From a bacterium (GTDB lineage Bacteria; Patescibacteriota; Gracilibacteria; Peribacterales; Peribacteraceae): a stretch of 47,829 bases of DNA. Below, one piece after another: positions 81 through 45,765 of this stretch. The notes beneath the pieces are model-generated. The model worked only from the letters and a program-made list of their open reading frames with translations, did no database searches and was not told the DNA's origin. Positions within the stretch are counted from its first letter, which is position 1; each line of letters begins with the position of its first letter. Location of the stretch: the NCBI GenBank assembly GCA_027623015.1, contig JAQBVR010000007.1, forward strand, positions 1 through 47,829, written 5' to 3'. A program made the position numbers and the translations under genes.

Positions 81-1259
81 TCAGATAGGGCTGCTCCTCA
101 TGGCGTCGTCCTCGGCCTCTCCTGTTTGCATGCTTTCTATTTTTATCTCGTTGATTCTTGTGTCTCGGTATTTATGAGCAGCTTCTCGTACATGGCTGAT
201 GTTGTATGTGGCATCACGCTTCTTGTCTTGCGTCTCCTGTTCTAAGCTGCGCTTGGTATCTATTTCTTTTTCGTCTGTCTTCTTCTGTGTCATTCGTATT
301 TCATTATGGATACGGATCTCTTCTTTTTTGCGATCTACTTCTATCTTTGTACGTTTCTTTTCAAATTCTCCTCGTAGCTGTTGAGCGTCTTTTCTCTCTT
401 TTTCTTCGACCTGCTTCTCTTTTGCTTTGCGTATGCCATCCTCTTTTATATCTTTCAGTGCCATCTTTTTTCTATCTGCTTCGCGTGTAACTTTCTGCTG
501 CTCATTGCGTTCCATAATCGCAAGCTTCGTGACTTCCGTCTTGGCCGTTTCATTCAGCTGCATGATGCGTTGCTTTTCTTCTATATCTGCATCTCCACGG
601 GACTTTCGCGCTTCTTCTGTTGCCTTCTTCGTGCCCAGTGTCGCATCTCTGTCGAGTGACTCATGCTTATGAAATGCTTCTTTTTCAGCATCTTTGACTT
701 TTGTCAAAACTGCTTCTTCTTCGTCTCTCAAATCTTTTTCCATTTTCATTTTTCGTCGGTTGGCATCACCAAGTTCTTGTAGATACAACGCTTGTTCTTC
801 TGCCTCCTTCTTTTTTCTCTCCACCTCCTCCTCCATATGTATGAGCTCAGCCTCTTTGCGCTTTTTTTCTTCTGCTAGATCTATTTTATGTTGAATCTCT
901 CCCTGTCGAAATGCTTCTTTTTCAGCTGTAGCCTGTAGCTCTCTCTTTTCTTCTTGGGCAATAAACTGCTTTGCACGCTCTGTTTCGGCTACTGCTTCCA
1001 GCTTCTTCTTTCGGGTCCGATCTGTGCGCTTCATAGTATCTTGTGCGATGCGCTTAGCTCCTTCTTCGAGTGTTTTATCGAACTCCTCTTTCTTTTCTTT
1101 TGCCTTGGTTTCTTCCTTGTCGTCCATAGTTCCCAAAGGAGCGTCGGATGATGAATCTGTTGGCAACTTTGCCTCCCCTTCTTTTGGTATAGACGCAGGC
1201 TTCTTTGCAGGCTCGTCTGAAGCTGCATCATCGCTAAAATCGTACATAGATTTGGTCAT
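81..1259 (-). CDS. Highly charged coiled-coil protein, function unknown
   Basis: A 392-residue protein made almost entirely of Glu, Lys, Arg, Ala and Gln. Long uninterrupted heptad-like helices run from about residue 45 to 375. It has no signal peptide, membrane segment or cysteine. The first 45 residues are acidic and Ser/Pro-rich and probably disordered, as is the short tail. The composition suggests a rod-shaped cytoplasmic structural or scaffold protein. Similarity to the charged linker of translation factor IF2 or to TolA would be compositional only. The start is well supported: TATAAT lies 6 nt before the ATG, preceded by TGC as in an extended -10, so the mRNA would be leaderless. The gene appears monocistronic. 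I do not recognise the family. Confidence 0.75.
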   Translation of the reverse strand: MTKSMYDFSDDAASDEPAKKPASIPKEGEAKLPTDSSSDAPLGTMDDKEETKAKEKKEEFDKTLEEGAKRIAQDTMKRTDRTRKKKLEAVAETERAKQFIAQEEKRELQATAEKEAFRQGEIQHKIDLAEEKKRKEAELIHMEEEVERKKKEAEEQALYLQELGDANRRKMKMEKDLRDEEEAVLTKVKDAEKEAFHKHESLDRDATLGTKKATEEARKSRGDADIEEKQRIMQLNETAKTEVTKLAIMERNEQQKVTREADRKKMALKDIKEDGIRKAKEKQVEEKERKDAQQLRGEFEKKRTKIEVDRKKEEIRIHNEIRMTQKKTDEKEIDTKRSLEQETQDKKRDATYNISHVREAAHKYRDTRINEIKIESMQTGEAEDDAMRSSPI

Positions 1260-1265
1260 CTAGGT

Positions 1266-1271
1266 ATTATA
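1266..1271 (-). promoter_or_regulatory. -10 box of the coiled-coil gene
   Basis: TATAAT preceded by TGC, with 6 nt (ACCTAG) to the ATG at 1259. This is the best consensus example of the leaderless arrangement. Confidence 0.75.
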
Positions 1272-1389
1272 GCACAATTTAGAGCGGATTTGTACTACTA
1301 GTCTATTGAAGAAATAGAGATCAAAGGCAAAGTGCTGGAGAAAGATTCTGAGGAGTAACATGTACTAGGTCTGATAGTAGTGAAACGAG

Positions 1390-1416
1390 GCACCCCTCCC
1401 TTTCAGGGAGGGGTGC
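1390..1416. terminator. Perfect 12-bp hairpin between aspS and the coiled-coil gene
   Basis: GCACCCCTCCCT and AGGGAGGGGTGC pair perfectly around a 3-nt loop. No U-run follows on either strand, so it may work as a Rho-independent-like pause, an mRNA 3' stabiliser for aspS, or a repeat. The CCCTCCCT/AGGGAGGG word recurs at 35971-36029. Confidence 0.5.
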
Positions 1417-1521
1417 GCAAGCGAATTTCCTATCCATTTCTCTGTTTATCCTTCGATAAGAGGTGTTCAATAACCCAAAACAGGGCACTTCGAAAACATC
1501 GAGTACGTCGAGTACCTCTTC

Positions 1522-3279
1522 TCAGTCCTTCATAATAGAAATCCCCAGCTCCTCTATTTGCTCCTCTGGCATAGGGGACGGTGCTCCTAGCATCAAGTCC
1601 TTGGCTTTCTGATCCTTCGGGAAGGCTATCACCTCTCGGATGTTGGGTTCGCCCGCTAAGATCATTACGACGCGGTCTACACCGTATGCAAAGCCACCAT
1701 GTGGTGGTGCGCCGTATTCAAACGCACGAAGGATGTGACCAAAGCGCTCCTCTTGGTCTTTCTTAGATATGCCTAGCAGGTCGAACACTTCTCCTTGTAG
1801 CTTAGGATCATGAATCCTGATCGACCCACTTCCCAGCTCGTATCCGTCGAGCACAAGATCATAGCAGATGGCAGTTATGCCAAATGGGTCTTCATTGCGT
1901 TTTTCCCATTGGTCTAGGTGAGGATGTGTAAATGGATGATGTGAAAATGTTACACCGCCATCATCTGTTTCTTCACAGAGTGGGAAGTCTGTTACCCAAA
2001 GCATAGAATGCACGGAGGTATCTATGAGATCAAAACGCTGAGCAGCTTCTTGGCGAATGCGTCCGAGGCTTGCGCAGACTACGGAGAACTTGTCGGCTCC
2101 GAAGAAGATCGCATCTCCCGTCTTTGCACCGAGAGCTTTTTGGAGTTTTTCTAGGTAGCCATCTGCAAAAAATTTCAGCAATGGTGAGTGAGGGCCTTCT
2201 TCTTTGAAGAGGATGTACGCTAGCCCCTTTGCTTTCTGTTCTTTGGCAAGTTCTGTCCATCGGTCTATCTCTCCACGTGAGAGTTCTGCGCCTCCAGGGA
2301 CGCAGATTGCTCGCACAATTCCTTTGTTTGCTATTGCATCTTCAAATACGTTGAACCCACATTCTTTGGAGATGTCACCAATATCAACGATAGGCAGGTC
2401 GTACCGTAGATCTGGCTTGTCTGAGCCGTAGTTGTCCATGACATGTTGCCATGTGTAGCGTTCCACTTTGCCAGTTTTGAGCGGCTTCTCACCGCATTCT
2501 TTGAGGATACTTATCAATGAGCCCTCGATGACGTTCATCACATCTTGCTGCTCGCAAAAGCTCATCTCAAAGTCGAGCTGTACAAACTCTGGTTGCCTGT
2601 CTCCACGGAGATCTTCGTCACGGAAACAGCGGCATAGCTGAAAGTATTTATCGATGCCACCAACCATACAGAGCTGCTTTAGTTGTTGTGGACTCTGTGG
2701 CAGTACGAAGAAGTTTCCTGGGTACACACGAGAGGGGACGATGTATTCACGTGCACCTTCTGGTGTTCCCTTTATGAGGCATGGTGTATCCACTTCTATG
2801 CAATCTTGCTCTGCGAAGTATTTACGTATGATTTGAAACACTTTGGAGCGTAGCGCCATGTTTTTCTGCATGCGTATACGTCGCATGTCTAGATATCGGT
2901 ACTCTAAGCGGATTTCTTCTCCTACATCTTTCTCTTGGTCTATCTCGAATGGTGGCGTTTTGGATTCGTTTAACACTTCGATATTTTTGACGAGTACTTC
3001 CACTCCTCCAGTTGGGTTTTCTGATCGCACTGCATCATCTTTTCGCTTTTGAACAGGGCCAGTAACTTTTAGCACCCACTCTGGTCGAACGAGTTCGCCG
3101 ATAGCGAAAGCATCTTTGTTCTTTGGGTCGAAGACGATCTGTGTAAAGCCATAGCGGTCACGTAGATCGATGAAGATGAGCCCTCCATGGTCACGTCGAC
3201 GGTGTACCCAGCCACAGAGTGTTGTTTCTGTCCCATCAAGGTCTTCGCGTAACTGCCCGCAGGTGTGTGTTCGAAGCAT
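1522..3279 (-). CDS. aspS: Aspartyl-tRNA synthetase
   Basis: A full-length 585-residue bacterial class IIb synthetase that charges tRNA-Asp. The N-terminal OB fold (residues 1-105) contains GWVHRRRDHGG. Class II motif 2 is FRDEDLRGDRQPEF at about 219-232, and motif 3 starts at GFAYGVDR (about 529). A GAD-type insertion lies between them. Residue 31 is His. In the Pseudomonas enzyme His31 is associated with the non-discriminating type, which also makes Asp-tRNA-Asn for conversion by GatCAB; here that is an inference. TAGCAT ends 6 nt before the ATG, so the mRNA is probably leaderless. Its 3' side is followed by the hairpin at 1390-1416. Confidence 0.97.
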   Translation of the reverse strand: MLRTHTCGQLREDLDGTETTLCGWVHRRRDHGGLIFIDLRDRYGFTQIVFDPKNKDAFAIGELVRPEWVLKVTGPVQKRKDDAVRSENPTGGVEVLVKNIEVLNESKTPPFEIDQEKDVGEEIRLEYRYLDMRRIRMQKNMALRSKVFQIIRKYFAEQDCIEVDTPCLIKGTPEGAREYIVPSRVYPGNFFVLPQSPQQLKQLCMVGGIDKYFQLCRCFRDEDLRGDRQPEFVQLDFEMSFCEQQDVMNVIEGSLISILKECGEKPLKTGKVERYTWQHVMDNYGSDKPDLRYDLPIVDIGDISKECGFNVFEDAIANKGIVRAICVPGGAELSRGEIDRWTELAKEQKAKGLAYILFKEEGPHSPLLKFFADGYLEKLQKALGAKTGDAIFFGADKFSVVCASLGRIRQEAAQRFDLIDTSVHSMLWVTDFPLCEETDDGGVTFSHHPFTHPHLDQWEKRNEDPFGITAICYDLVLDGYELGSGSIRIHDPKLQGEVFDLLGISKKDQEERFGHILRAFEYGAPPHGGFAYGVDRVVMILAGEPNIREVIAFPKDQKAKDLMLGAPSPMPEEQIEELGISIMKD

Positions 3280-3285
3280 GTTTGT

Positions 3286-3291
3286 ATGCTA
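3286..3291 (-). promoter_or_regulatory. -10 box of aspS
   Basis: TAGCAT with 6 nt (ACAAAC) to the ATG at 3279; TGC precedes it. Confidence 0.65.
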
Positions 3292-3369
3292 GCAATCTCT
3301 TGAAATAGAGGAAACCATATGATGGACATAAATACATAGTAAATTCCAAAACTGGGATGTCATCCTGCG

Positions 3370-3425: not shown

Positions 3426-3469
3426 GGAGCCTGACGAAGGGCCAAAACCCAATGACTCATAACTTTTTA

Positions 3470-3919: not shown

Positions 3920-3925
3920 ATTGTA
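3920..3925 (-). promoter_or_regulatory. -10 box of nrdR
   Basis: TACAAT with 6 nt (AGCTTC) to the ATG at 3913. Confidence 0.7.
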
Positions 3926-4579: not shown

Positions 4580-7500
4580 TTACAGTGTAGTTGTAACATA
4601 TTTTTCCATCACCTCTGCGATCTTCTTTTCTAATATGGTCGATGTACTGATAGTGAGTGGGAGCGAGACAGTCTGTTCACCAATTTTGAGTTGCACCTTC
4701 TCTTTGCCTGGGAAAGTTTCGAGTACATGCTTGAGGTCGAGAAGCATCTTCTTTGGTGCTCTTTCGGGGAGGTCGATAGTATAGACACTGATTTGTGTTT
4801 TTGAGTTGGGGGTTGTGGGTTGCGGGTTTTGTATGTCATTTGTTTTATTTGGGATTTGGGATTTGGGATTTGGGACTTCATCTGCCTCTTTATTGTTTTG
4901 CAGCAATCCTAGTTCACTCATTATTTTATCTACAGGCATGCCGTCAGATATCCATTTAGCGATGGGGCCAACCAATTCTTCTGTTACCACAGGACTTTTT
5001 TTTTCTACAGTAATAGTCTCACCTGCTATTACATTTCCTTCTTCATCTATTGCGTCTACAGCGTCAATTTCGTTATCTTCTAGCGATACTGCTCTCGTAA
5101 TTCTGATGCCATTCTTTGCCTCTTCTTCATCATAAAATCCAGATTTTTTTGCGTTGTCTATGACACGAGTGAGCTTCGTACTTTTTATGCTATCGGCCCG
5201 TACTTGCAATTGGCCTGCGCGTAGGTCGAGTGCGCCATCGATGACAAGGAATGTATTTGCATCTTCTATGTGCTCCGCAACTTCTGCATATGTTCGTGGG
5301 AACAGGGTTACTTCTATCTTTCCAGTAGGGTCTTCGAGAAACAGTATTGCCATTGTGTCTCCTTTTTTAGTTGTAATCTTTTTAATACCTTCCTGTATAC
5401 CTGCAAGTTTGACCTTCTTGCCCACCTCTTTTTGCGTTAGATTCCCGATGAGCTGCGCCTTTTTCCCTATGTATTTCTTCAGTCCGGCAAGTGGGTGACT
5501 CGATACATACATACCAAGGGTTTCTTTTTCCCATTGTAGTTTCTCTAGAGGGCTTGCAGGATCTGTCTCGGGAAATTCTATCTTTGCTTCAGATTCAGGA
5601 TCCTCCATGCTAGCAAAGAGGTCAGTTTGCGTACTACTTACATCGCTACAAGCCTTGGCATAGTCGGTGATGTGTACAAGAGTTCGCCTTTCGCCAAGTG
5701 AATCTAGCGCTCCTGCCTTTGCCAGTGCGTCGACAGTTTTTTTATTGATGATTTTCGCAGGGACCCGACTAGCAAAATCTTCTAGGCTACTGAACTTTTC
5801 ACCCTGCTCACGCACTTCGATGATCTGCTGTACAGAGCTATCCCCGATTCCTTTGATTGCTGTAAGTCCAAATCGAATAGCACACTCCTTTGGCATCGCA
5901 GTGAAGTGGCGTAGGGATTCATTGATATCTGGTGGAAGAACTTCTATGCCCATCTCTCGACATTCTTCGATCTCGATCATCACCCTATCTGTTCGTTGTG
6001 CGTCGCTACTGAGGAGGGCGGACATAAATTCCACAGGGTAGTGTGCTTTGAGATATGCAGTTTCATAGGCAATGCGTGCGTAGCCAGCAGCATGTGATTT
6101 GTTAAATCCATACCCAGCAAATGGCGTGATGACATCATCGAATATTTTCTCAGCAAGAGCTTTGTCATAGCCTTTTTCCATTGCACCTGCGATGAACTTT
6201 TCACGTTGAGCATCGAGCTCAGATTTAATCTTTTTACCAATGGCTCGCCGTAAGATGTCTGCACTGCCAAGGGAAAATCCTGCAAAGACCTGAGCGATCT
6301 GCAAGATCTGTTCTTGGTAAATGCCAATACCGTATGTCGGTTCGAGGATTGGTTTTAGATCATCGTGGATGTACTTCACCTTTTCTTTACCGTGTTTACG
6401 TTTGATGAAACTTGGGATGTACTCCATCGGACCAGGTCGATACAAAGAGACCATAGCAGTGATGTCGCCAAATACTGTTGGCTTGAGTTGTTTTAGGTAT
6501 CTACGCATGCCTCCGGACTCCAGCTGGAATACTCCAGTCGTTATACCTCGTTGTAATAACGCGTATGTTTCGCTGTCATCTATGGGGATATTTGCAATAT
6601 CTAGTTCCTTACCTTCGGTACGCTCGATAATCTCCAGTGTTGTCTGAATAACCGTTAAGTTCATAAGTCCTAGGAAATCCATCTTTAGAAGACCAAGAGC
6701 CTCAAGTGGTTTAGCAGATGACTGTGTAATGATCGTCTGATCGTCCTTGGGCGCTCTTTGCAGTGCGGTGTAACACACGGTTGGTTCTTCAGTAATGATC
6801 ACTCCACATGCATGTACAGACACGTGACGAGCCTTCTTCTCAAGCTTGAGAGCAATATCAATAATCTTTTTGTAGGTTTCATTGGTGTCGTATGCAGACT
6901 TCAATTCTTGCGTTTCAAGCGCTTCGTCGAGTGTGGTACCAGGGCGTTCGGGTATGAGTTTGGCGAGAGAGTTCATCTCCAAAAATGGCACACCATACGC
7001 ACGACCTACATCTTTTACTGCAGCTCTCGCTGCCAGTGTTCCAAATGTGCAGATCTGTACAACTTTATCTTCACCGTATTTTTCGCGCACATAATCCAAC
7101 ACTTCATCTCTACGGTTATCGGCAAAGTCTATATCGAAGTCCGGCATAGATATACGTTCTGGATTGAGAAATCGCTCGAAGAGCAGTCCGTGTTCTATGG
7201 GGTCTAGACCTGTGATCTTCAGGCAGTACGCGATCATCGATCCTGCAGCAGACCCACGTCCAGGCCCTACGGTGATGCCCCGACGCTTTGCTTCGTTGAC
7301 GAAGTCTGACACGATCAAGAAGTATCCTGCAAAGTCGACTTCTTCGATGACTTTTAACTCGTATTCCAAGCGGTCACGATGTTCCTGTGTCGGGTTTTTA
7401 TACTGTTTAGCGAGTCCTTCCGTTGCAAGTTCCCGTAGATATGCAGCTTCTGTTTTTTTGTCTGGAACAGGAAATCTTGGGATCCGGTATGTGCCAAAAT

Positions 7501-8343: not shown

Positions 8344-8349
8344 ATTATG
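8344..8349 (-). promoter_or_regulatory. -10 box of dnaE
   Basis: CATAAT with 5 nt (CTCCT) to the ATG at 8338. Confidence 0.55.
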
Positions 8350-8410
8350 CTACAACATGAATGGGTTTTTGTCGAAAGCTTTGTTTTTCTTAGTGTGTTT
8401 CAATGGGTCA

Positions 8411-8490
8411 AAGGGGGCACTGGGAACCAGTGGGCAAAAGGAGCTAACGGGCCAAACCCAAATATACACCTTTACCCCTTGTCCCCCTTT
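8411..8490. repeat. Inverted G-rich/C-rich arms between the secreted operon and dnaE
   Basis: AAAGGGGG near 8411 faces CCCCCTTT at 8483-8490. The arms are extended by loosely heptad-spaced GGG and CCC runs. The hairpin begins at the stop codon of the 531-aa gene and may serve as its terminator. Confidence 0.45.
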
Positions 8491-10084
8491 ATTCTATCCC
8501 CTCTGTTACTTTTGCAGCGCTTCTACACATTTCATGGTGTGTTGGATTGCCGACAAACGATCCGTCTGTGTACGGGAAGCACACATCTTTGAAGTTGATC
8601 TTGAGTATGTGATCAAGTTGCTTGGTACAAGTGCGGTAGATGCATGATCTTCTGAGGTACCATCCTAAACCACGCGTGAATTTTCGTGCACCTACTTCCT
8701 GCTTCGATGCATAGCGAGAGAAATCTCTCATGACCGTTCTCAGTGGCTTTAACATTGTAGTTATTTGCAGCTGAGCATCTGTAGATTGCATGATAGCCGT
8801 TGCCTCTTCTCCCATTTGTTCTATATTCCAACGCTTAAAGTAATCTCTCATGAACCAGCGAATGAAACTCTTTGAACTTCCTAGTATTGATTCACGCGCT
8901 TCGGCATCTGTGAACTCAGTTGAGCCATCGATATACTCGTTTGGGAATTTGAGATAATCCGCTTGTTCGCGCAGTGCACCCCATGCACGTAATTGATAGA
9001 ACAGTCCATGTAAGAGTGCTGGTTCGTTTTTCGAAAGATTGAACGGTCCTCGTAAGGCTATCCGCGCTGCGCCTTTAGGAAATTCATTTGGTGTGTCGGT
9101 ATCGATGCGTGCTGCTTCAAGCACGTCTCCGTCGAATCGGTTGCACCCTATACGTGTACGATGAGTCCGTTCCGATTCTCTGCCCTTGAGGAAGTCGTCG
9201 AGTCTGTCTTGGATATCGGACGTATCTCTTCCCAATGATGTGAGAATGGCAAGAGTTATGTCTCGTATGTAGTCTACATTGTTTAAAAAGTCGTCGCGTG
9301 CATCTATAAAAGCAGCCATTCCGTCTCGTTCTGCGACAGCATAGACACGTCCTCCATCTGCTATATCGTTTAATATACCCAAGTCACAACCGTATCCTGC
9401 TCCAGTAGGAGGAAGATAATCAGAGTGAAAAGGGCACATGATTTGCTCCTCTGGTTCGGGGTCTGGCTTGTCGCAACTGTGTGCTTCGCAGGATTTCCAT
9501 GATGCCAGTGGATTACCCTTATTTTGTAAGCATGTTACCCGGTCTCCTAGTACGCAATTTAACCCCTCTGACTTGTTGCAGCACCACCCATCTTCATCGA
9601 AGCTATAGAGCCAGTGGTAATATTCGTCTTCGTATAGGGGATCTGTTCCACCTCTGATGAGTTGGTTGTAGCGCGCGTTAAGGAATCTTGCGAGTGACTG
9701 TAGACGGAAGATGTCTCCTATGCGCTTTTCCTCAAATGCAGTGAGGATCTCTTGGCGCACGAGCTCTATTTCTTCTTCCATGAGGATAAGATCATAGTGG
9801 TAACATGCCGTGATATTTACCAAGTCGCGTTGGTATTCAACTATACGTAGTTTTGTATCGACAAGCTCAAGAAATACACCAGTGAGCTGGCTGAGCCAGT
9901 TGAAAAAAACAAAGTGGAAGTCGCTGACCGATGCAGCACTTTGGGAGTTTGCAATACCTTGGTTTGCACGGTCGAGCACATCTTGAACGTAGTGGTCAGA
10001 GACTGCTAGATCATGAAAGGCGTACGTCTGGAGTGGTGTTCCAGCGAGTAGTAAGCCAATGAGTAGTGTACTAATCTTTTTCAT
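8489..10084 (-). CDS. Secreted cysteine-rich protein, last gene of a five-gene operon
   Basis: A 531-residue protein I do not recognise. It begins with a clear Sec signal peptide (MKKISTLLIGLLLAGTP, likely cleavage after YA at about 22) and has no other membrane segment. The middle is cysteine-rich (CCNKS, CLQNKG, CEAHSCDK, CPFH, YGCDLG). A helical C-terminal part ends with SCIYRTC, and more cysteines lie nearer the end, so disulfide bonds outside the cell are likely. Its ATG shares one base with the TAA of the upstream gene (TAATG), implying translational coupling. No Shine-Dalgarno sequence is seen. It sits between the metalloprotease-like gene and dnaE. A part in a surface or secreted complex with its four neighbours is an inference. 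Confidence 0.85.
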   Translation of the reverse strand: MKKISTLLIGLLLAGTPLQTYAFHDLAVSDHYVQDVLDRANQGIANSQSAASVSDFHFVFFNWLSQLTGVFLELVDTKLRIVEYQRDLVNITACYHYDLILMEEEIELVRQEILTAFEEKRIGDIFRLQSLARFLNARYNQLIRGGTDPLYEDEYYHWLYSFDEDGWCCNKSEGLNCVLGDRVTCLQNKGNPLASWKSCEAHSCDKPDPEPEEQIMCPFHSDYLPPTGAGYGCDLGILNDIADGGRVYAVAERDGMAAFIDARDDFLNNVDYIRDITLAILTSLGRDTSDIQDRLDDFLKGRESERTHRTRIGCNRFDGDVLEAARIDTDTPNEFPKGAARIALRGPFNLSKNEPALLHGLFYQLRAWGALREQADYLKFPNEYIDGSTEFTDAEARESILGSSKSFIRWFMRDYFKRWNIEQMGEEATAIMQSTDAQLQITTMLKPLRTVMRDFSRYASKQEVGARKFTRGLGWYLRRSCIYRTCTKQLDHILKINFKDVCFPYTDGSFVGNPTHHEMCRSAAKVTEGIE

Positions 10085-12546
10085 TAGATATCGACGATGC
10101 GTTCACACATCTCTGTGGGGAAGTTTACATCGCCAAGTCCTTTGAGTAGGTCATCTGTTGAGTGCATGATTTCTTCGAAGGCGCGTACTGCGGTGGAGAA
10201 GTACAGTAGGTACACATTTGTACCAATGCGTGAGCCGACACCAGGTGCAAGGATGCTCAATGCATGGTGCTCTAACTGTTGTTCAAGTGGTTGGTCGTTG
10301 AGACTTTGCCATGTAGCAAGAAGATTGTAGGTTTGTCTGCTTAGTCTTCTGCGTACATCAAATGCACATTTTATAGGAGGGAAGAGTTTGGGTAGACCGT
10401 TGACTTGGCATAGTGCGTTGTCGAGTTCTTGCACTAAGGTATAGGGGCGATACGGTGGAAAGGGCACGCTTAAGTCAGGAGAAGAGAGGAAGAATGCTCC
10501 AAGGTTTGGGTCTTTACCAGCTTCGCTTTCATAGGGGAAGTTTTCTCCTTGTACAGTAGTTGTCCATCGTCCAGGGATGAGCTTATGTCCTTCGAGAGAC
10601 TGCTCTACACATTGTCCGATAAAGCAGAGGTTATTGCCAATCGTATTGAGGAACTTCGTCTGGCAATCTGGAGAGCACACGAGTGGCATAGAGTTGATCA
10701 TTTTTTGCGCACGTGGATCGAGATTGTTTACTGCCTCTTCACAGGTGTCTGGCAGACCAATCTCTGCATAGTTATCCTCGATGTACTGGGTTGTCTCATC
10801 GTAGATTATCTGTGCGTCGAGGTCTGGGTTGTTGCCAAAATCTGAACAAGAGCCTGGTCCTCCGCAGCTGAAGTCAGAAAATGCAGCAGCACACACATCG
10901 ATGCTATACCCCAGAGCTGGGAGTATGCCGTCTTCTGCCATTGCTCCGCATGAAGCGAGATACGCTTGATACTCTGTGGCACAACAACCCTCTGTGGTGT
11001 CATAGGATTCTACCCATCCATTTTCATATCCAGGTGGTAGATTACAGTGCTGTTGCGCATGCACCACTTCGTGGATGATCAGGTATCGTGAGTTTTTTCC
11101 GATTCCCCCAATACATGTTTTTATGCGGTTGGGATTCGTTGGATTTCCAGATTCATCATATCCTTTTGGTGCGCTGAGGCCTTCTTGCGGTGTACCAGTA
11201 CAACCACAGACAAGGTCGACATAGCAATTGCTACATGCTCCTGGATCTACATCTACTTCTTCACCTGGTGTATCTACAAAAGCCTCTGGGCCACTTGCAC
11301 CTGCTATCGTTGGTCCTTCTGTAAAAGATCTCCAACCTCCTTCTTGGCACATATTTGGCCCTGACTCTGTTCTCCGTTGTGAAGATAATAGGTTTGGTGC
11401 TTTGCAGCCAGTGAGGAGAATCTGTTCGTCGGTAACTTCTGTGTCGAGTATCGGAGGGCAGACTGCAGAGACGCGATCACGACAGAGGTAGCCACTTTTA
11501 TCAAAAGGATGTGAGCACAGCATGGTGCCAGCTTCTGGATCTTCAAGTTCACCAGGATAGGTTCCACCAAGAATGGCGCCGTCTACACATTCTTCTGGTG
11601 TTTCGTAGCTATCGCTACAGTCAAGTGATGGCAAGATGTTGTCGACAGGTACTTCCCAGCCTAGTCCTACGTCGTCTTGGCGAGTCCAGACATAGATGTT
11701 GAGATCTTCAAATTCCTGTATGGGAAACAGTGCTAGTTCTCCAGTGTTGAGTGGTGGATCAAACACTACAGCGGAGGTGTCTGCATAGATGTCGAGTAGC
11801 GCGTCTTCTACATCACACCATCTGGCTGTCATAAACTGTAGTTCCGTTCCATCGCCTTTGCCATCTTGTCCGGCATCACAATCTGCTGATGCAACGATAC
11901 GTTGGTGGCCATTGCGATAACGCCACACTGCTGCGATAAGTTTTTCTTTATCTTCTTTATCTCCAGATTCATCTAGTGCTGTTAATGCTGTTTCTAGTGT
12001 GGTGAATTTTGTCTCCATAGCTGCAGGGTCGTCAAATACAACACCGCGTGCTTTGGATTCTACAAATGGGCTCATCTGTACAGCAGTATCTGCCTGCCAG
12101 ATTTTGAGGATGCTTGGTAGTCGAGATGCGATAGCAACGGTTCTTCCAGGGTAGCTGTCGATACCTATCTCGTAACCTCCTGTGATGTACTGCCATTCAC
12201 GGATCTGCATGCGTAGCCATGTGTTGCGTCGCACAAGATCGATAACTTGGTCACGGTATCCTTGGCAATATGTAGGATTATCGGGCTTGTCGTCGTCTTC
12301 TGTTCTACAGATTTCAGAGTCTCGCTTTTGGAGGGCCTTATCTACATCGCTTTCCTCTAGTTCTATGAGAGAGTCGGGGTAGATCTTTGCGAGGAATTCT
12401 TCGATAGGCTTTTCTGCTTCTTTCATTGCCGCTTCCTGCAGTGTAAATGCTTTGATGCGTTCATACAGCGTGGCATCCAGTGCGTGCACAGGTGCGGCTT
12501 GTAGGAGCAAGCTGAGGCCGATGGCAATAGGGGTATAGTGCATCAT
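10084..12546 (-). CDS. Secreted HEVVH metalloprotease-like protein
   Basis: An 820-residue protein. The preferred start is ATG 12546, which overlaps the TGA of the upstream gene (ATGA). This puts a signal peptide (IAIGLSLLLQAAPVHALD) at the N-terminus; the open frame continues upstream but only lengthens it inside the neighbouring gene. Residues 492-496 are HEVVH in a hydrophobic LIIHEVVHAQQH helix, the zinc-binding and general-base pattern of zincins. A Glu at 525 (CCATEYQAY) is well placed for the third, gluzincin-type ligand. More than 25 cysteines lie around this core, so the mature protein is probably extracytoplasmic and disulfide-bonded. The large N-terminal helical region and C-terminal part are unrecognised. 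Protease activity is inferred from the motif alone. Confidence 0.8.
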   Translation of the reverse strand: MMHYTPIAIGLSLLLQAAPVHALDATLYERIKAFTLQEAAMKEAEKPIEEFLAKIYPDSLIELEESDVDKALQKRDSEICRTEDDDKPDNPTYCQGYRDQVIDLVRRNTWLRMQIREWQYITGGYEIGIDSYPGRTVAIASRLPSILKIWQADTAVQMSPFVESKARGVVFDDPAAMETKFTTLETALTALDESGDKEDKEKLIAAVWRYRNGHQRIVASADCDAGQDGKGDGTELQFMTARWCDVEDALLDIYADTSAVVFDPPLNTGELALFPIQEFEDLNIYVWTRQDDVGLGWEVPVDNILPSLDCSDSYETPEECVDGAILGGTYPGELEDPEAGTMLCSHPFDKSGYLCRDRVSAVCPPILDTEVTDEQILLTGCKAPNLLSSQRRTESGPNMCQEGGWRSFTEGPTIAGASGPEAFVDTPGEEVDVDPGACSNCYVDLVCGCTGTPQEGLSAPKGYDESGNPTNPNRIKTCIGGIGKNSRYLIIHEVVHAQQHCNLPPGYENGWVESYDTTEGCCATEYQAYLASCGAMAEDGILPALGYSIDVCAAAFSDFSCGGPGSCSDFGNNPDLDAQIIYDETTQYIEDNYAEIGLPDTCEEAVNNLDPRAQKMINSMPLVCSPDCQTKFLNTIGNNLCFIGQCVEQSLEGHKLIPGRWTTTVQGENFPYESEAGKDPNLGAFFLSSPDLSVPFPPYRPYTLVQELDNALCQVNGLPKLFPPIKCAFDVRRRLSRQTYNLLATWQSLNDQPLEQQLEHHALSILAPGVGSRIGTNVYLLYFSTAVRAFEEIMHSTDDLLKGLGDVNFPTEMCERIVDI

Positions 12547-13310
12547 CCGTCTTCGATATCGCGGAGAACATCTCGTGCATCCCACACACGTGGGAGGCAC
12601 ATAGCGGCGTCGGCTCCCAGAGCGAGGGCATTGCGCAGATCAAGCGAGCCGCGTTGTAAGCATTGGAGTTCTGCATCTATGGGTCCGAGTCTTCCTATTC
12701 CACTTACGACCATGAGAGACCTTTCTAGCGATGGTCGAGAGATAGCAAACTCTTCCATCATCTTTATCCGTCGTGCTCCCATCTCTGCTGCGACACTCAT
12801 CAGGGAAAATCCTCTGATAAATTGTAAAGGAGGACCTCCGCCTGCTGCTTCTTCAAATTTTTGTGTGATGATGTCTATAGGTAAAAAGAAGTTGTGGTCC
12901 GTCATTGCACATTCATACGTACGGAGATATTCCAGTAGTACTGATCCGATATCTGTGCGCTTGAGTTTTGCAAATTCATCTGGCTCCGCCCATGGAGGCA
13001 AGCTCCGTGCAATTCTTCCTATGGCAGATCCAGCACTCACAGGAAGCAAGTTGTCTTGCGTACATTTTATCTCTTCTGCTGGCTTGATATATTCCTCTAT
13101 AGCAGCGCTTATTTGCTCATGGTAGATATCGTCCCAATCTTCGAACTGCATATTTAGGAAGTCTGCAACGTCTGTGTAGCGGTCTTCATATCGTGAACAT
13201 GGAGCAAGTATAGGGTAGCGTTGACCAACTTCTGGTGCAGCTTTGACAGTAGGTATTGCGCTTATGAGAAGTGCACAAAGTGTTATGAGAGATGTCGTGG
13301 GGTTTCTCAT
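12543..13310 (-). CDS. Secreted protein, third gene of the secreted operon
   Basis: A 255-residue protein with a signal peptide (TSLITLCALLISAIP, cleavage near VKA|AP at about 24). The mature part is mostly alpha-helical with five cysteines (PCSRYED, KCTQD, YECAM, LQCLQ, AMCLP). No known domain is visible. Its ATG follows the upstream TAA directly (TAAATG), and its own TGA overlaps the next start (ATGA), so it is embedded in the operon. No Shine-Dalgarno sequence precedes it. Confidence 0.8.
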   Translation of the reverse strand: MRNPTTSLITLCALLISAIPTVKAAPEVGQRYPILAPCSRYEDRYTDVADFLNMQFEDWDDIYHEQISAAIEEYIKPAEEIKCTQDNLLPVSAGSAIGRIARSLPPWAEPDEFAKLKRTDIGSVLLEYLRTYECAMTDHNFFLPIDIITQKFEEAAGGGPPLQFIRGFSLMSVAAEMGARRIKMMEEFAISRPSLERSLMVVSGIGRLGPIDAELQCLQRGSLDLRNALALGADAAMCLPRVWDARDVLRDIEDG

Positions 13311-14111
13311 TTAAGGAGCGAGAGGTGGATATGCGTCACAACTTGCGACAAAACATGGGATTCGGTTTAGTCCTCCTATGAGATTTATTACATCGCGAAG
13401 CGTGGAAATAAGAGGAAGTCGAAATTCCTGTAAGAATAGATCAAAGTTTCCTGCAAACTGTAAGACAGTGCGATAGGCAGCATCATAAGAGATTGCCATA
13501 GAGATGATGCCTGCTTCTTGTTCGAGCATTTCTTCTACAATTTTTGGGCAGTATCCTAGAGTGTCTGCTTGATCTCCAAGGTTAGTTTTTTTGTTTGCGA
13601 AATGGCATTCCGGAAAAGTCTCTACATCTTTTTTTATGCACCCAAGTGCGGATACCGTGATATTTTGTGGAACATCTTCAGCGTAGTTCATCGATTGCAT
13701 TTGTTGGTCACATATCAACGATAGGTTGCATTGGAATGCGCGCATGCTCTGACCAATATATGGAATAAGATTTGATGTAAGGACTCCTCGTGTTTCGAAG
13801 AATCCACGTCTATTCCCACCAGGGGTTTGCGCATCCATATCAAAATCTGTGAATGGGAAATCCACAGCGGTGCTCCTCCATTCGTTTTCTGCAACTTTGT
13901 ACCATGCTCTATCTATGAAATCGATGCGCACTTCACCTATGCCTGCTTCTTCCGCTTTTTTTACACCAAAAACTACACCGCGAAAGATCGCGTGTTCCTT
14001 CTGTATTTCTTCATGAAGAGCATTGCGACAGACGTCTGCATCTATGCGTTGTCCTTGTGCAGAAGGAATCTGGGCTATAAGAAGGCCGGTAATAATGACG
14101 ATGTTAAGCAC
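13311..14111 (-). CDS. Secreted protein, second gene of the secreted operon
   Basis: A 266-residue protein starting at a GTG that shares a base with the TAG of the preceding gene (TAGTG). A short signal peptide (LNIVIITGLLIAQIPSAQGQ) leads into a helical, cysteine-containing domain (DVCRN, FQCNLSLICD, LGCIKKD, PECHF, GYCPK). It ends with a hydrophobic helix and IPCFVASCD. The size, single export signal and paired cysteines resemble the 255-aa neighbour, but I see no convincing sequence repeat between them. Function unknown. Confidence 0.8.
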   Translation of the reverse strand: MLNIVIITGLLIAQIPSAQGQRIDADVCRNALHEEIQKEHAIFRGVVFGVKKAEEAGIGEVRIDFIDRAWYKVAENEWRSTAVDFPFTDFDMDAQTPGGNRRGFFETRGVLTSNLIPYIGQSMRAFQCNLSLICDQQMQSMNYAEDVPQNITVSALGCIKKDVETFPECHFANKKTNLGDQADTLGYCPKIVEEMLEQEAGIISMAISYDAAYRTVLQFAGNFDLFLQEFRLPLISTLRDVINLIGGLNRIPCFVASCDAYPPLAP

Positions 14112-17100
14112 TATGAGGAGCTGGAGGAACTAGAAGAGCTATGGACAGGAAGGAGGTTTATAGTGGGGCGTACTTCAAATGCTGGTGTCATCTCATTTGG
14201 TGTAACGATGAATTTCTGTAAGTCTTCATCGGCTACACCTTCTCTTAGGAGATTTTCTTCAAACATATCCACACGCAGATTATTTATTAGGTCGTCTTGC
14301 AGTGTATCTGCTGGCGTGCGGATAGCCCATCCGTGTTGTGGTTCATACGTGAAGGGTCGCTGGAGAAGGCACGCCCAGTCTTCTCGAGGACAGTAGTCTA
14401 CGTCGTTGTATTCGGGCGCACGTTTTTGACCGTAGGATTCGAAGTCTTCTTTTAGTGTAACCCCTGGCCTAGCGCAGATGCGCTCAAGACGTGACAAGAG
14501 GTCCATCTCCACGTGTACACATGTATCGAGGTATACACTAACGCAGTCTTTTTCCGTCCCTTTAGGGTCTACAGTTTCGGGGTCTATCTTTACGCTTTTC
14601 CAGAATCTTCCGTAGGAATAGTCCATGAGAAATACGAGATCCTCGATACGGTCGAACACAGCAGCGTCTACGAGAGGGGCAGTACCAGGGAAGTACGACG
14701 TAAGGTCTGGTGGTGGGTTTTCTACCAGCACATCGGGGAAGTCAGCAGCAGTTATACCATCTGCGATCGTTGGTATTGGGGGAAGGGCTGGTGGTAGTTT
14801 CTCTAGAATATCATCGATGATTCTAGGATCTGCTTTTGTCGAAGGTACAGTGAGAAGAAATGGACTCAATCGAACTTGAATTGGTTTCAGTACAGGAAGT
14901 CGTATTGCACCTGTTGCAGTACGGATCATCGAGAAGTCCAATACCACGTCTCCAAGTCTTGAGACACTAAAGCGGGGAAGAGTAAGAGGGTTGAGGCCCT
15001 CAACTGCTCCGTCTATGCCACCATCGAGCAGAGGTCTACCTGGAAGCCAGGGTGTACCACCCCCATCGTCGAGCAGGGAGAAAATTGGTGGTAAGAACCG
15101 CATATTCATGCACCATGGAAGATTGGTTTTGTCGTGGAATTTTCTGTAACGAAGCTGAATTTGCTGCCAGCGAAAACGGAGTTGCTCGAGGGCACTTATC
15201 GAGTTCTGGAAACTTATGTATTGCTGGAGTGAGTTATTGAGCCAGTTGCCTATTGTACTAATAAGCTCGTTTTGTTGTACAAGCAAAAGTGCTTCGTAGG
15301 TTGCAAGTTCTCCACGCAATATACGAATGTCATCCATGCGGTCGGCATACTCTTCTAGGCGCTCTACGAGAGGTGCTACAGTGCCATCACATTTTTCTGT
15401 TTTATCGCGCTCCATTTCCCAGCTACACCATGCCTGCGCGATAGAGCGGTACTCTAGTGGGTCGCCAAATGGTACGACGACTGGTACGGGTTCTTCAAGG
15501 ACGCGGAGTACGAGTGAGCGTTCCATGTATGCTGCAACTTCTCCAAGAAGATCCTCTCTTGCCTCAAGCATCACCTCGATGGGTTGGTCACGAGGGTTGT
15601 CTCTGTCTTCTGCGAGGATAGGGTCTGTTGGATCTTCGGGGTCGGGTATATCTGGTGTGAAGAGAGGGTCAAGAGGGTCGAGGCCGACAGACCATGTCGG
15701 AGGTAGCTGTAGACGTACCTGTGGAGTATTAAACAGATTGTGTGCTTCTGTTTCGAGTTCTTGCCACCATTCTACTAGCGTACGTCTCTGTGGTCGTAGA
15801 GAAGTGACGGTGTCATCCATTGCGCGTAAGTACGCGCCACTGGAGTAGAGATTTTCCAGTGTTAACTGTGGGTAAGCACGGTGCTCAGATGTGTCTGGAG
15901 TAAGCAGGGCAAAAGAGAGGTCGCTGCCGAAGTCATCTTCAAAGACCTTTCCATTGAGGAGAGAAAAGCCTCCACCAAGATTTGGGTACCAGAGATCATC
16001 ATCATTTGTGTAGGTGGGGTTGCGAATGATGTGGTAATCCTCAGGGACGCGTGAGTCTGGTAGGTCTGGCCATATGTTATCGTCCTTACTTTTTTTGCCA
16101 TACTCCACTTGGTCGTCGAGGCTCCAGTCATTTTTCTGCGAATCTTTCATATCCCAGAGGTGGTTGGATTCGTATGATGTCGCGATGACACAATTTTGCT
16201 GGTACCACTCTGAGACGACGAGCATCGGGTCGTAGTCAGCGCCTGTGAATTGAACTCCGTAGAATCCGTAGCATGCTACTGGTATGGACGGACGCGTACG
16301 ATCATCATCCGGAACGCCTGGGACAGCTTCTGGCATGAAGCAGCTTGCGTCGTATTCACGAAAGTAGGAGTAGTACGGTGCCGGGCCGGGTTCAGGCCCC
16401 GTTTGTGGTGGTTGCCCTTGGCAGTCTGGCCCTGTGCATGTTCGGCAGTTCATCTCTTCTGGTGGGGCCATAGTTCTGCCATCTGCTGTAGCTTCTGCGC
16501 TAAGATCTACGTTTGCATTGGTACAGCATTGCATAGACCTATAGTAATTCCAGACACAGTTGTAGTACGGAAGCACTGCCGCAGGGTCTAGCGGTTCTGG
16601 GTCAGGTGGCTCATCGTCTACATCTAAATCCCAACACGACGTATTTGCATACGTCAACCCTTTGAATGTCACCGTTATGGTCGTAGTTCCTCCAGGGGGA
16701 TCTGGCAATGGTATTACGATGTCTAGATCGCACTGCAAAGAGTATTGTCTGTAGTTCCAACGGCGAGTCAGATCTTCACAGAGTGCATCGCATGTCCACT
16801 GCACACCATGATCAAGAGGATCAGTTGTGTCGCAATTTGCAGTTGCTGGCTCTGTTGTATCTGCGCCCGGCGGGCCAATCTTTGGATGGGGATCATCGCA
16901 TGCTTTACTATCTGGTTTGTAGATACTTGGATTGCCATCTTCACCCCTTGGCCGCTGACAGGAAAAGAACTCATAAAACGATGGCCACCCTGGTCTGCAT
17001 GCAGAGGTAAATCCATCTGCATCTGCAGGGTATTCAAATGGTGTGCCAGGAATACGGATGCCCATACCACTTTTTATATCTCCAAGTGGATCGTATCTGT

Positions 17101-17338
17101 GCCCGGGGACACCATTGACGACTGCCATCTTTGGTACGACTTCAGATTCATAGTTCCAACCACCACAGTGTGCTTGAGATAGGTCGTCTTCTATCTCTGA
17201 AATTGCAGTATTTACACCTTTTATATCTCCAGGGTTTTCTTGTACAGTAAGCGCTTGCCCAACCGATGGTAGAGCGAGACCTGCCAGTGCACACACAGTG
17301 AGAAATTTATAAATCGTACAATAAGGGTAGGGTTGCAC
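14111..17338 (-). CDS. Large secreted cysteine- and proline-rich protein with poly-Ser tail
   Basis: A 1075-residue protein, first gene of the operon, starting at GTG. A signal peptide (FLTVCALAGLALPSVGQA) ends near residue 30; a GTG at codon 15 would still leave a usable one. Residues about 50-380 are rich in Cys, Pro, Gly and aromatics (CCTNAN, CRTCTGPDC, CSWEMER further on). Two long helical stretches follow (about 590-730 and 890-960), with a proline-rich segment between them. The protein ends in nine serines encoded by mixed codons, so this is not simple slippage. No anchor or sortase motif is present. TTGAAT-16-ATATAT at 17389-17416 could be its promoter; AAGGAGGAG lies about 30 nt upstream of the start, too far to be a ribosome site. 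Confidence 0.8.
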   Translation of the reverse strand: MQPYPYCTIYKFLTVCALAGLALPSVGQALTVQENPGDIKGVNTAISEIEDDLSQAHCGGWNYESEVVPKMAVVNGVPGHRYDPLGDIKSGMGIRIPGTPFEYPADADGFTSACRPGWPSFYEFFSCQRPRGEDGNPSIYKPDSKACDDPHPKIGPPGADTTEPATANCDTTDPLDHGVQWTCDALCEDLTRRWNYRQYSLQCDLDIVIPLPDPPGGTTTITVTFKGLTYANTSCWDLDVDDEPPDPEPLDPAAVLPYYNCVWNYYRSMQCCTNANVDLSAEATADGRTMAPPEEMNCRTCTGPDCQGQPPQTGPEPGPAPYYSYFREYDASCFMPEAVPGVPDDDRTRPSIPVACYGFYGVQFTGADYDPMLVVSEWYQQNCVIATSYESNHLWDMKDSQKNDWSLDDQVEYGKKSKDDNIWPDLPDSRVPEDYHIIRNPTYTNDDDLWYPNLGGGFSLLNGKVFEDDFGSDLSFALLTPDTSEHRAYPQLTLENLYSSGAYLRAMDDTVTSLRPQRRTLVEWWQELETEAHNLFNTPQVRLQLPPTWSVGLDPLDPLFTPDIPDPEDPTDPILAEDRDNPRDQPIEVMLEAREDLLGEVAAYMERSLVLRVLEEPVPVVVPFGDPLEYRSIAQAWCSWEMERDKTEKCDGTVAPLVERLEEYADRMDDIRILRGELATYEALLLVQQNELISTIGNWLNNSLQQYISFQNSISALEQLRFRWQQIQLRYRKFHDKTNLPWCMNMRFLPPIFSLLDDGGGTPWLPGRPLLDGGIDGAVEGLNPLTLPRFSVSRLGDVVLDFSMIRTATGAIRLPVLKPIQVRLSPFLLTVPSTKADPRIIDDILEKLPPALPPIPTIADGITAADFPDVLVENPPPDLTSYFPGTAPLVDAAVFDRIEDLVFLMDYSYGRFWKSVKIDPETVDPKGTEKDCVSVYLDTCVHVEMDLLSRLERICARPGVTLKEDFESYGQKRAPEYNDVDYCPREDWACLLQRPFTYEPQHGWAIRTPADTLQDDLINNLRVDMFEENLLREGVADEDLQKFIVTPNEMTPAFEVRPTINLLPVHSSSSSSSSS

Positions 17339-19476: not shown

Positions 19477-19482
19477 AGGTTA
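19477..19482 (-). promoter_or_regulatory. -10 box of murB
   Basis: TAACCT with 6 nt (AGCTAC) to the GTG at 19470. Its upstream end runs into the heptad array. Confidence 0.55.
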
Positions 19483-19990: not shown

Positions 19991-19996
19991 ATTGTA
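19991..19996 (-). promoter_or_regulatory. -10 box deciding the start of the 154-aa membrane protein
   Basis: TACAAT with 6 nt (AGGGCC) to ATG 19984. It places transcription start inside the longer open frame and so excludes the upstream start codon. Confidence 0.65.
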
Positions 19997-21583: not shown

Positions 21584-21675
21584 CACTACGAGGACAGCGT
21601 CGTCTGTAGTCTGCGGACGTTTTTGAGGTAAATTCTACTTTACATAGAAGATTTGATGAGTAGAATGTTGCGGCT

Positions 21676-25130: not shown

Positions 25131-25136
25131 ATTCTA
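25131..25136 (-). promoter_or_regulatory. -10 box of murG
   Basis: TAGAAT with 7 nt to the ATG at 25123. Confidence 0.6.
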
Positions 25137-25722: not shown

Positions 25723-25728
25723 ATGCTA
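25723..25728 (-). promoter_or_regulatory. -10 box deciding the GTG start of the kinase gene
   Basis: TAGCAT with 6 nt (GAGCAA) to GTG 25716. Confidence 0.55.
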
Positions 25729-27150: not shown

Positions 27151-27156
27151 CATACT
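27151..27156 (+). promoter_or_regulatory. -10 box of the GT2 gene
   Basis: CATACT with 6 nt (TCATAC) to ATG 27163. Confidence 0.6.
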
Positions 27157-30748: not shown

Positions 30749-30754
30749 CATACT
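30749..30754 (+). promoter_or_regulatory. -10 box of tsaB
   Basis: CATACT with 6 nt (GGCTCT) to ATG 30761. Confidence 0.6.
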
Positions 30755-31386: not shown

Positions 31387-31460
31387 GTTTTCTACAACAT
31401 AGGTGATTCTCCATTGTTATTTCTTATTTCATAGTTGATTTCTGCTATTCTCTGCCAGTC

Positions 31461-36615: not shown

Positions 36616-36621
36616 ATTATG
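36616..36621 (-). promoter_or_regulatory. -10 box deciding the GTG start of the ferredoxin gene
   Basis: CATAAT with 6 nt (AGCCAC) to GTG 36609. Confidence 0.65.
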
Positions 36622-41180: not shown

Positions 41181-41186
41181 ATCGTA
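41181..41186 (-). promoter_or_regulatory. -10 box of mdh
   Basis: TACGAT with 6 nt (AAAGTT) to the ATG at 41174. Confidence 0.65.
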
Positions 41187-44301: not shown

Positions 44302-44308
44302 AGAGAAA

Positions 44309-44314
44309 AAATTA
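44309..44314 (-). promoter_or_regulatory. -10 box of small protein B
   Basis: TAATTT with 7 nt to the ATG at 44301. Confidence 0.45.
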
Positions 44315-44344
44315 CTCTTTTGCCTTGGCTAAGGCAAGGAAAAT

Positions 44345-44794
44345 TTACACAAGCTTGCTAAATTCGCCTTCATGGCCGTCATCGTCATCGTTTTCTGCAT
44401 TTCTTTCAGCATTGCTTTTTCTTCGCAATAATTCCTCCATAACCATTTGGAAGCCAGCTATAGATGCTATCAGGGGATTTAGAGATAAGTCTCTAATCTC
44501 AACTAATGAGAGATTTGCAGTAGAATTTGGAATAAGTAGTACAATTTGCTCCCTGCAATACCTAGGTAGGTTCGCTATCGCTTCACGCATCGTATTGTCT
44601 GTATCCAAGAGGATATTGGCTACAACTTGTGGCTTTAGTCGTAGAAGGTGATTTACCGCCCTTCGCTCTTCTGTGTCTAATATTGCTACTTCAGCATCGT
44701 AAATCTCTTGTGAAATGCCCCATTCTCGATTTACTGTATCGTTCGGAGTGTTTCCACTCGGCTGACTTGGCCCACCAATTGGATCAGTTCCCAT
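44345..44794 (-). CDS. Small protein C between sufB and sufD
   Basis: A 149-residue protein. A disordered N-terminus (GGPSQPSGNTPND) leads to helices (about 22-130) and an acidic tail (NAENDDDDGHEGEF). ATG 44794 is chosen because a perfect TATAAT ends 6 nt upstream; ATG 44809 would lie upstream of the transcription start. It is the third small minus-strand gene interrupting the suf genes. No family recognised. Confidence 0.6.
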   Translation of the reverse strand: MGTDPIGGPSQPSGNTPNDTVNREWGISQEIYDAEVAILDTEERRAVNHLLRLKPQVVANILLDTDNTMREAIANLPRYCREQIVLLIPNSTANLSLVEIRDLSLNPLIASIAGFQMVMEELLRRKSNAERNAENDDDDGHEGEFSKLV

Positions 44795-44800
44795 ATGTAT

Positions 44801-44806
44801 ATTATA
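44801..44806 (-). promoter_or_regulatory. -10 box deciding the start of small protein C
   Basis: TATAAT preceded by TG, with 6 nt (ATACAT) to ATG 44794. The box lies inside the longer open frame. Confidence 0.7.
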
Positions 44807-44903
44807 CATTACTTATAGAATTGTGTCTATTCTTCGTCGGGCTCAGAATGACACCAATGTTTTTTTATTAAAACAACCTCAGATGCCGATAGCATCTTCA
44901 TGT

Positions 44904-44909
44904 TAAGCT
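44904..44909 (+). promoter_or_regulatory. -10 box of sufD
   Basis: TAAGCT with 7 nt (AATACTA) to ATG 44917. It gives sufD its own promoter, separate from sufB. Confidence 0.5.
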
Positions 44910-44916
44910 AATACTA

Positions 44917-45765
44917 ATGGAGTTAGATATCACCGACATCGATGGCAAGAAGCATTTGGTTATACCACAAAATCAGACGATTGATGCTGTGCAGGAATAC
45001 TCTGTACAAGATGCAACAACAGATCTGCAGATCCATGCAGAGGCAAGAAGCAGCGCGACAGTAAGTATCGTCATAGATCCAGATGATGATGTATGTAAGT
45101 GCTCGTTGCACATTGTTGTAGACGCAGGAGCAAAGCTTACAGTGCTACTTTTGCAAGTTGCAAAGTCTAAGAGCGTATCTATTTCGCAGTCATCTCAGAT
45201 AGCAGATGGTGCGCACTTGCGTTTGCACAACATTACTCTCGGAGGAGAGGATGTATCGCACGATATAGAGTCGCACCTTCTCGGTCAGCATGCCGTAAGT
45301 GATATCGACTGGATCTTCTATGCACGGAACAAAGAGAAACAAAAACTCTCTGCGACAAATGTATTTGAAGGTCGTGCAGGCGGAGGAGAGATCAACATGC
45401 GTGGTGTCGCGCAGGACTCAGCACACGTTGTCTGTAATGGCATGATCAACATTGGCGAGGGGGGTGGAGAAACAGACACGTACTTAACCGAAGAGGTGCT
45501 CATGCTCGACAAAACTGCAAAGGTAGATGCTATCCCTGGGCTGGAAATAAAAACCAATGATGTGAAAGCAAGTCACAGCGCAACTGTTGCGAAGGTTACC
45601 GAGGCAGATCTATTTTATTTTGCTGCGCGAGGGATACCTACAGATCAAGCACGTCAAATGTACGTTCTTGGGTTTTTAGAAGATCTAACTAAAAGGATTG
45701 CAGCTCCAGATCTTAGCAAGAAAGTACTGCAGGAAGTCGAAAAGAAGTATATGTTTATAGTCTAG
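44917..45765 (+). CDS. sufD: Short SufD-like Fe-S assembly protein
   Basis: A 282-residue SufB/SufD-family protein, much shorter than usual SufD (about 420). It keeps the beta-helix core and the C-terminal signature KVDAIPGLEIKTNDVKASHSATV with the conserved His, then LFYFAARGIPTDQARQMYVLGFL. The N-terminal helical region of normal SufD is missing. With SufB and SufC it should complete the scaffold. Neither a cysteine desulfurase (SufS) nor a sulfur shuttle (SufE/SufU) is in the window. Confidence 0.85.
   Translation: MELDITDIDGKKHLVIPQNQTIDAVQEYSVQDATTDLQIHAEARSSATVSIVIDPDDDVCKCSLHIVVDAGAKLTVLLLQVAKSKSVSISQSSQIADGAHLRLHNITLGGEDVSHDIESHLLGQHAVSDIDWIFYARNKEKQKLSATNVFEGRAGGGEINMRGVAQDSAHVVCNGMINIGEGGGETDTYLTEEVLMLDKTAKVDAIPGLEIKTNDVKASHSATVAKVTEADLFYFAARGIPTDQARQMYVLGFLEDLTKRIAAPDLSKKVLQEVEKKYMFIV

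Follow-up and report, generated by a model that had tools for sequence, protein, structure and literature searches.

Start-adjacent promoters and predicted leaderless mRNAs in a Peribacteria-type member of the Patescibacteria with an altered anti-Shine-Dalgarno core

Transcription of leaderless mRNAs from a -10 box adjacent to the start codon is established for Deinococcus-Thermus and for Actinobacteria (PMC12340547, PMC3160421, PMC4633059). In Deinococcus-Thermus, an ORF-adjacent Pribnow box drives leaderless transcription of approximately 30-46% of genes, enhanced by a -35 element at 17 bp (PMC12340547; PMC3160421), and in Mycobacterium a large fraction of mRNAs are leaderless (PMC4633059). 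Bacteroidota do not use Shine-Dalgarno (SD) sequences yet translate efficiently, and some Flavobacteriia have lost the anti-SD motif CCUCC (PMC10783764). The classification in the same source includes a category iv, "SD-scarce organisms lacking CCUCC", which lists Candidatus Peribacter riflensis and SR1/Absconditabacteria; anti-SD loss in a Peribacter is thus already recorded there.

The genome analyzed here resembles each of these systems in part. As in Deinococcus-Thermus (PMC12340547; PMC3160421), a Pribnow box lies a few bp before the ORF, and as in Mycobacterium (PMC4633059), a large share of mRNAs is predicted to be leaderless. SD sequences are not used, as described for Bacteroidota, and CCUCC is missing and SD pairings are few, as in category iv, whose table holds the closest named species (PMC10783764). 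Unlike in Deinococcus, which has a clear ribosome-binding-site (RBS) motif besides the -10 motif, no gene class has SD sequences, and the anti-SD core has degenerated. Unlike in Bacteroidota, for which A-rich leaders are described (PMC10783764), promoters lie directly against the start codon, and a C/U-rich element precedes internal genes. Family-wide anti-SD loss, compensatory hairpin changes and start-adjacent promoters go beyond category iv, which as tabulated comes without promoter or leader anatomy (PMC10783764). No literature linking leaderless promoters to Peribacteria was found in a search that most subscription papers, e.g., those on GeneMarkS-2 and the CPR ribosome, lay outside. New here are the promoter anatomy and its extent, the lack of any SD gene class, the hairpin-constrained, family-wide decay of the anti-SD, and the C/U-rich element of internal genes.

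The window (the whole 47,829-nucleotide stretch of DNA analyzed) comes from the 1,099,175-base MAG (46 contigs, 99% complete) of a tiny uncultured bacterium, all of which was used beyond the window. The host is assigned to a Peribacteria-type lineage of Patescibacteria (CPR) because the closest AspS relatives in named genomes are from Candidatus Peribacteria/Peregrinibacteria MAGs (70-79% identity). Gene calls and starts were our own: 949-953 genes were called genome-wide from codon statistics, and starts were chosen only by coding signal, by start codon and by whether the gene overlapped its upstream neighbour, never by upstream motifs. Start uncertainty was integrated over in the promoter model, and starts were also checked by homology; a forced-start subset comprised 82 genes, too small a sample. 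Genes were classed as opposite-neighbour heads (upstream gene on the other strand), co-directional genes with a gap of at least 40 nt, or tightly packed genes (gap <40 nt). The promoter comparison covered E. coli, named Peribacteria contigs and class genomes G034, G061, G081, G089, G090, G136 and G163. For G136, from another family of the class, gene calling failed with the standard code and gave normal genes with TGA as sense, consistent with code 25; standard-code calling also failed for G210, from another class family, which was read instead with TGA as sense. The following -10 boxes precede genes in the window (gap, number of nt between box and start codon):

1266..1271, minus strand: TATAAT, gap 6 to the ATG at 1259; weak -35 TACAAA at 17 bp
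3286..3291, minus strand: TAGCAT, gap 6 to the aspS ATG at 3279; position conserved in Peribacteria orthologues
3920..3925, minus strand: TACAAT, gap 6 to the nrdR ATG at 3913
4584..4589, minus strand: TACACT, gap 7 to the Sua5/YrdC-family ATG at 4576
8347..8352, minus strand: TAGCAT, gap 8 to the dnaE ATG at 8338
19477..19482, minus strand: TAACCT (weak), gap 6 to the murB GTG at 19470
19991..19996, minus strand: TACAAT, gap 6 to the ATG at 19984; absent from the examples given earlier
21661..21666, plus strand: TAGAAT, gap 9 to the LpxC-like ATG at 21676
25131..25136, minus strand: TAGAAT, gap 7 to the murG-like ATG at 25123
25723..25728, minus strand: TAGCAT, gap 6 to the shikimate-kinase GTG at 25716; -35 TTGACC at 16 bp
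27151..27156, plus strand: CATACT, gap 6 to the glycosyltransferase ATG at 27163
30749..30754, plus strand: CATACT (weak), gap 6 to the TsaD-family (TsaB-like) ATG at 30761
31446..31451, plus strand: TATTCT, gap 9 to the secA ATG at 31461
36616..36621, minus strand: CATAAT, gap 6 to the ferredoxin GTG at 36609
41181..41186, minus strand: TACGAT, gap 6 to the lactate/malate dehydrogenase ATG at 41174; -35 TTGTTC at 17 bp
44801..44806, minus strand: TATAAT, gap 6 to the ATG at 44794; top promoter score of the window (10.0 bits)
46388..46393, minus strand: TAACCT, gap 9 to the ATG at 46378; -35 TTGAAA at 17 bp, and also a CCTCC/pyrimidine stretch
47042..47047, minus strand: AATACT, gap 8 to the ATG at 47033; -35 TTGCAT at 17 bp

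The N-terminal domain match of NrdR begins at residue 1 of the start at 3913. The window also encodes five large proteins in a row (8489-17338, minus strand; 255-1075 aa) without any Pfam match.

With starts set without upstream information, TAnnnT was found at gap 6 in 5 of 41 genes in the window (approximately 1.3 expected) and at gaps 5-7 in 12 of 41 (approximately 4 expected). An earlier note on this DNA had proposed that -10 boxes sit 5-7 nt before start codons, and in all ten of its example genes a [TC]AnnnT hexamer does end exactly 6 nt before ATG or GTG; the 9 nt that it gave for secA and the LpxC-like gene was also recovered. Its count of 21 genes is not itself evidence, because a loose hexamer (one of T, A and T may differ) at gaps 5-7 precedes 69% of heads and also occurs in 58% of shuffles; the evidence is the exact-gap, exact-hexamer peak. 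That peak emerged at 6 nt from the genome-wide comparison with shuffled sequence that the note had suggested. Before opposite-strand heads, TAnnnT occurred at gap 6 in 52 of 310 cases, at gap 7 in 33 and at gap 8 in 21, against a background of approximately 9 per position. The 16.8% of heads with TAnnnT at gap 6 compares with 3.2% in dinucleotide shuffles (Fisher P = 1e-20), 2.2% at intergenic non-start ATGs (P = 6e-26) and 0.6% at internal ATGs (P = 2e-45). Gaps 6 and 7 of the proposed range thus peak, but the range actually extends from 6 to about 11, because gap 5 is avoided (1.0% of heads versus 3.6% in shuffles).

The position of the box is conserved among orthologues, which have the motif in common (odds ratio 6.4, P = 2e-5, homology-defined starts). 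Upstream of aspS, for example, TATACT, TACACT or TAGAAT lies at gap 6 in most Peribacteria, within unrelated flanks; in other lineages of the class, its place is taken by a TAAGAT located far upstream. The gap-6 peak was found in three further genomes of the family (G034, G061 and G081, spread over gaps 6-8 in G061) and in the pooled named Peribacteria contigs. One genome from another family of the class (G090) showed a broader peak at gaps 6-9, no gap-6 peak was found in two other families (G089 and G136), and the pattern in G163 was ambiguous.

The start-adjacent boxes are sigma70-type promoters, with a -35 element at approximately 17 bp and a YR initiator on the A of ATG. De novo expectation maximization without a prior recovered TA[TC]AAT at gaps 6-9, and before 60% of opposite-strand heads (modal gaps 6, 7 and 8); given a -10 box at gaps 5-8, TTG was most frequent with a spacer of 17 bp (36 versus about 6). 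A joint -35/-10 model gained 747 log-likelihood units over 729 heads, and about 0 on internal and non-start ATG controls; it learned a -35 of TTG(C/A)nA, a spacer of 16-17 bp, a weak extended -10 and gaps of 6-11, with gaps 0-5 nearly empty. Under a model with latent starts, a promoter within 40 bp was assigned to 81% of opposite-neighbour heads (gap 4-9, 53%; gap 6, 25%), 64% of co-directional genes with at least 40 nt upstream (40% and 15%), and 29% of tightly packed genes (19% and 8%). Gaps 0-5 took only 0.7%, and three decoy models (reversed, complemented and permuted) fitted in the same way yielded about 0. At gap 6, base -1 was a pyrimidine in 90% of 142 cases, compared with 65% in genes without a promoter; transcription initiating at the A of ATG would be expected to show this pyrimidine-A step. 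Of 443 genes without a promoter, 21 started with TTG, versus 0 of 231 with a promoter at gaps 6-9. Three traits of bacterial genomes with leaderless transcription were found: a large share of genes with a Pribnow box 6-8 nt ahead of the start codon, promoter features, and a preference for heads over internal genes.

Leaderless mRNA is the best reading of these data because of the promoter model, the decoys, the YR step and the distribution of TTG starts. Such promoters (TTGnnn, 16-17 bp, partly extended TA[TC]AAT) would place the A of the start codon at +1 or 1-5 nt after it, and most transcription-unit heads would therefore give leaderless or near-leaderless mRNAs. These would require direct recognition of the start codon, presumably, as in other bacteria, of a 5'-AUG with initiator tRNA on 70S or 30S ribosomes. 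With SD:anti-SD pairing not detectably used anywhere in the genome, the anti-SD core of the 16S rRNA, freed from SD constraint, would have drifted across the family, limited only by its pre-16S hairpin. We consider this explanation as a whole (start-abutting promoters, leaderless or nearly leaderless heads, SD disuse and anti-SD drift) very probable. The earlier inference of leaderless transcription is supported by the 17-bp -35, the YR initiator, the wall below 6 nt, orthologue conservation, and the SD and anti-SD losses. As the main mode it holds for heads, approximately 53-59% of the opposite-neighbour class having a predicted leader of 0-5 nt, but not for tightly packed downstream genes (19%). 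Such leaders would thus apply to most opposite-neighbour heads that have a detectable promoter. Leadered mRNAs exist as well, because no promoter is detectable within 40 bp of approximately 19% of opposite-neighbour heads, and in 18% it lies 21-40 bp away; leadered or operon-internal genes are still a large minority.

How many of these mRNAs begin exactly at the start codon bears on a related reading, in which transcription usually begins a few nt upstream and the resulting 1-5 nt leaders act like leaderless mRNAs. Gaps 7-11 combined exceed gap 6, and base -1 at gap 7 is a purine in 45% of cases, but no single gap is commoner than 6, at which a strong initiator falls on the A of ATG, and base -1 is mostly a pyrimidine at gaps 8-10, also favoring the start codon as +1; we regard short leaders as the usual case as rather unlikely. 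Far less probable is that TAnnnT is an AT-rich, non-SD ribosome-binding element within a leader, comparable to those of Bacteroidota or Cyanobacteria, and not a promoter box. The depletion of G upstream of starts, the absence of SD sequences and the occurrence of TAnnnT at gap 6 before 10% of tightly packed downstream genes would suit such an element, which gives no reason for a TTG 17 bp further upstream or for a YR step exactly at gap 6, nor for the concentration of the hexamer at transcription-unit heads (53% versus 19%). That the peak is an artefact of AT-rich intergenic base composition or of motif-driven start choice, as the near-chance loose-hexamer count might suggest, can be dismissed: starts were picked blind to upstream sequence, nothing appears at internal or non-start ATGs or in shuffles and decoys, the peak survives homology-defined starts (TAnnnT at gap 6 in 18 of 97 genes versus 2.1 per position), and E. 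coli in the identical pipeline has an SD peak (58 versus 10) and lacks the one at gap 6.

Start-adjacent promoters and the predicted leaderless mRNAs are accompanied by a lack of SD signal. Unlike in the mixed system of Deinococcus, no RBS motif was found alongside the -10 motif: SD motifs were at or below background in all gene classes, heads and internal genes alike. Leaders were predicted to pair with the 16S tail no more strongly than shuffles, for heads or internal genes, whether the canonical or the organism's own tail was used, in agreement with the earlier remark that operon-internal genes carry no SD sequence. Re-matching of the SD to the altered anti-SD (AAGGAAG-like) was rejected, with no enrichment over shuffles. 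Mycobacteria retain SD sequences and an intact anti-SD; here, in contrast, SD sequences are absent and the anti-SD is altered. Pairing at -8.4 kcal/mol with the organism's own tail was found for 2-3% of genes, equal to shuffles and below the limit for SD-scarce organisms in PMC10783764 (at most 5.5% of genes at that energy), a limit set with a different program and window from ours. The altered rRNA end lies within the window:

47689..47829, minus strand: 16S rRNA gene, 3' end, truncated at the contig boundary (RF00177, 109 bits, model positions 1387-1533)
47692..47696, minus strand: anti-SD core CUUCC instead of CCUCC
47681..47695, minus strand: hairpin UUCCUU-ACC-AGGGAA spanning the canonical 16S 3' end; folds in 50/50 family tails

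The 16S 3' end reads GGAACACUUCCUUA, with the core CUUCC and not CCUCC; candidate 3' ends are ...CUUCCUUA or an end extended through AGGGAA. Across the family, the anti-SD is altered in 47 of 50 16S tails from 49 genomes (CUUCC, UCUCC, UUUCC and UUUCU). CCUCC is kept in 46 of 103 tails in the rest of the class, where the f6 relatives have CCGCC/UCGCC and f14 and f22 have UCUC(C/U), and in every 16S found in the phylum sample outside the class. The change is local and not a product of poor sequence, because the stretch preceding the tail is identical in all matched family members, an identity that the match pattern itself in part demands. In addition, the GGAUCA that precedes the anti-SD is replaced by GGAACA in essentially every family member. 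GAUCA is the Era-binding site. Loss of Era from most CPR has been reported (PMC10582724).

The anti-SD core of the family pairs with GGGAA or GGGAG directly past the canonical 3' end. The variable pair 5-19 of this predicted hairpin is U-A in 34 and C-G in 14 of the 50 tails, with two exceptions and no U-G, a pattern indicating that it is kept by compensatory changes. Most relatives, many genomes outside the class included, have comparable sequence past the 16S 3' end, and for this reason we infer an old pre-rRNA processing hairpin that persisted after the anti-SD lost its pairing function. G081 combines predicted leaderless promoters with an intact anti-SD core, which suggests that SD disuse preceded anti-SD decay. 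Loss of ribosomal protein S1 was rejected as an explanation because a 489-aa frame contains S1 repeats; regarding loss of bS21 as a cause, no bS21 match was found in the genome itself, and relatives gave borderline matches only.

Tightly packed downstream genes seem to use a different, C/U-rich signal. Those without a -10 box (n = 128) have a C/U-rich element positioned at -13 to -8: CC ends 7, 8, 9, 10 and 11 nt before the start in 18, 16, 21, 26 and 26 cases (about 7 expected), TTCC occurs at gap 10-11, and G is depleted. TTCCC is the most enriched 5-mer before internal genes (12 versus 3.7), the element is also found within overlapping coding sequence, and C is raised at the same position in three family relatives (small samples). 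Examples in the window are:

Upstream of 14111: C/U-rich element where an SD would sit
Upstream of 13310: C/U-rich element where an SD would sit

It is quite possible, if short of probable, that Peribacteria have an SD-free, two-mode initiation, with leaderless heads and a UUCCC-like element 8-13 nt before internal starts replacing the SD. The element may serve to attract ribosomes, to prevent RNA folding or to base-pair with a partner. Translational coupling is also plausible for tightly packed genes because in many cases the start codon overlaps the stop of the preceding gene (31 at -4 and 20 at -1). Within the 16S 3' region, complementarity to internal-gene leaders is highest in GGGAAUUUU and CAGGGAAUU, and pairing of the C/U element with the GGGAA past the canonical 3' end, in an extended tail, is weakly hinted. 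As a specific UUCCC/GGGAA pairing this is unsupported, because CTCCC does not take over in relatives that have GGGAG (0 and 1 cases, approximately 0.9 expected each, in tiny samples).

If this reading is true, Peribacteria would be a bacterial lineage that makes its proteins wholly without SD pairing, with the loss written in its rRNA. The family appears to hold different stages, leaderless with an intact anti-SD in G081 and leaderless with a decayed anti-SD elsewhere, and the order of events (disuse first, decay second) is therefore testable. Gene finders that assume an RBS would then mis-call starts in this group, and expression constructs built on the same assumption would fail. Ribosomes of Peribacteria would offer a natural system in which to study initiation by the start codon only.
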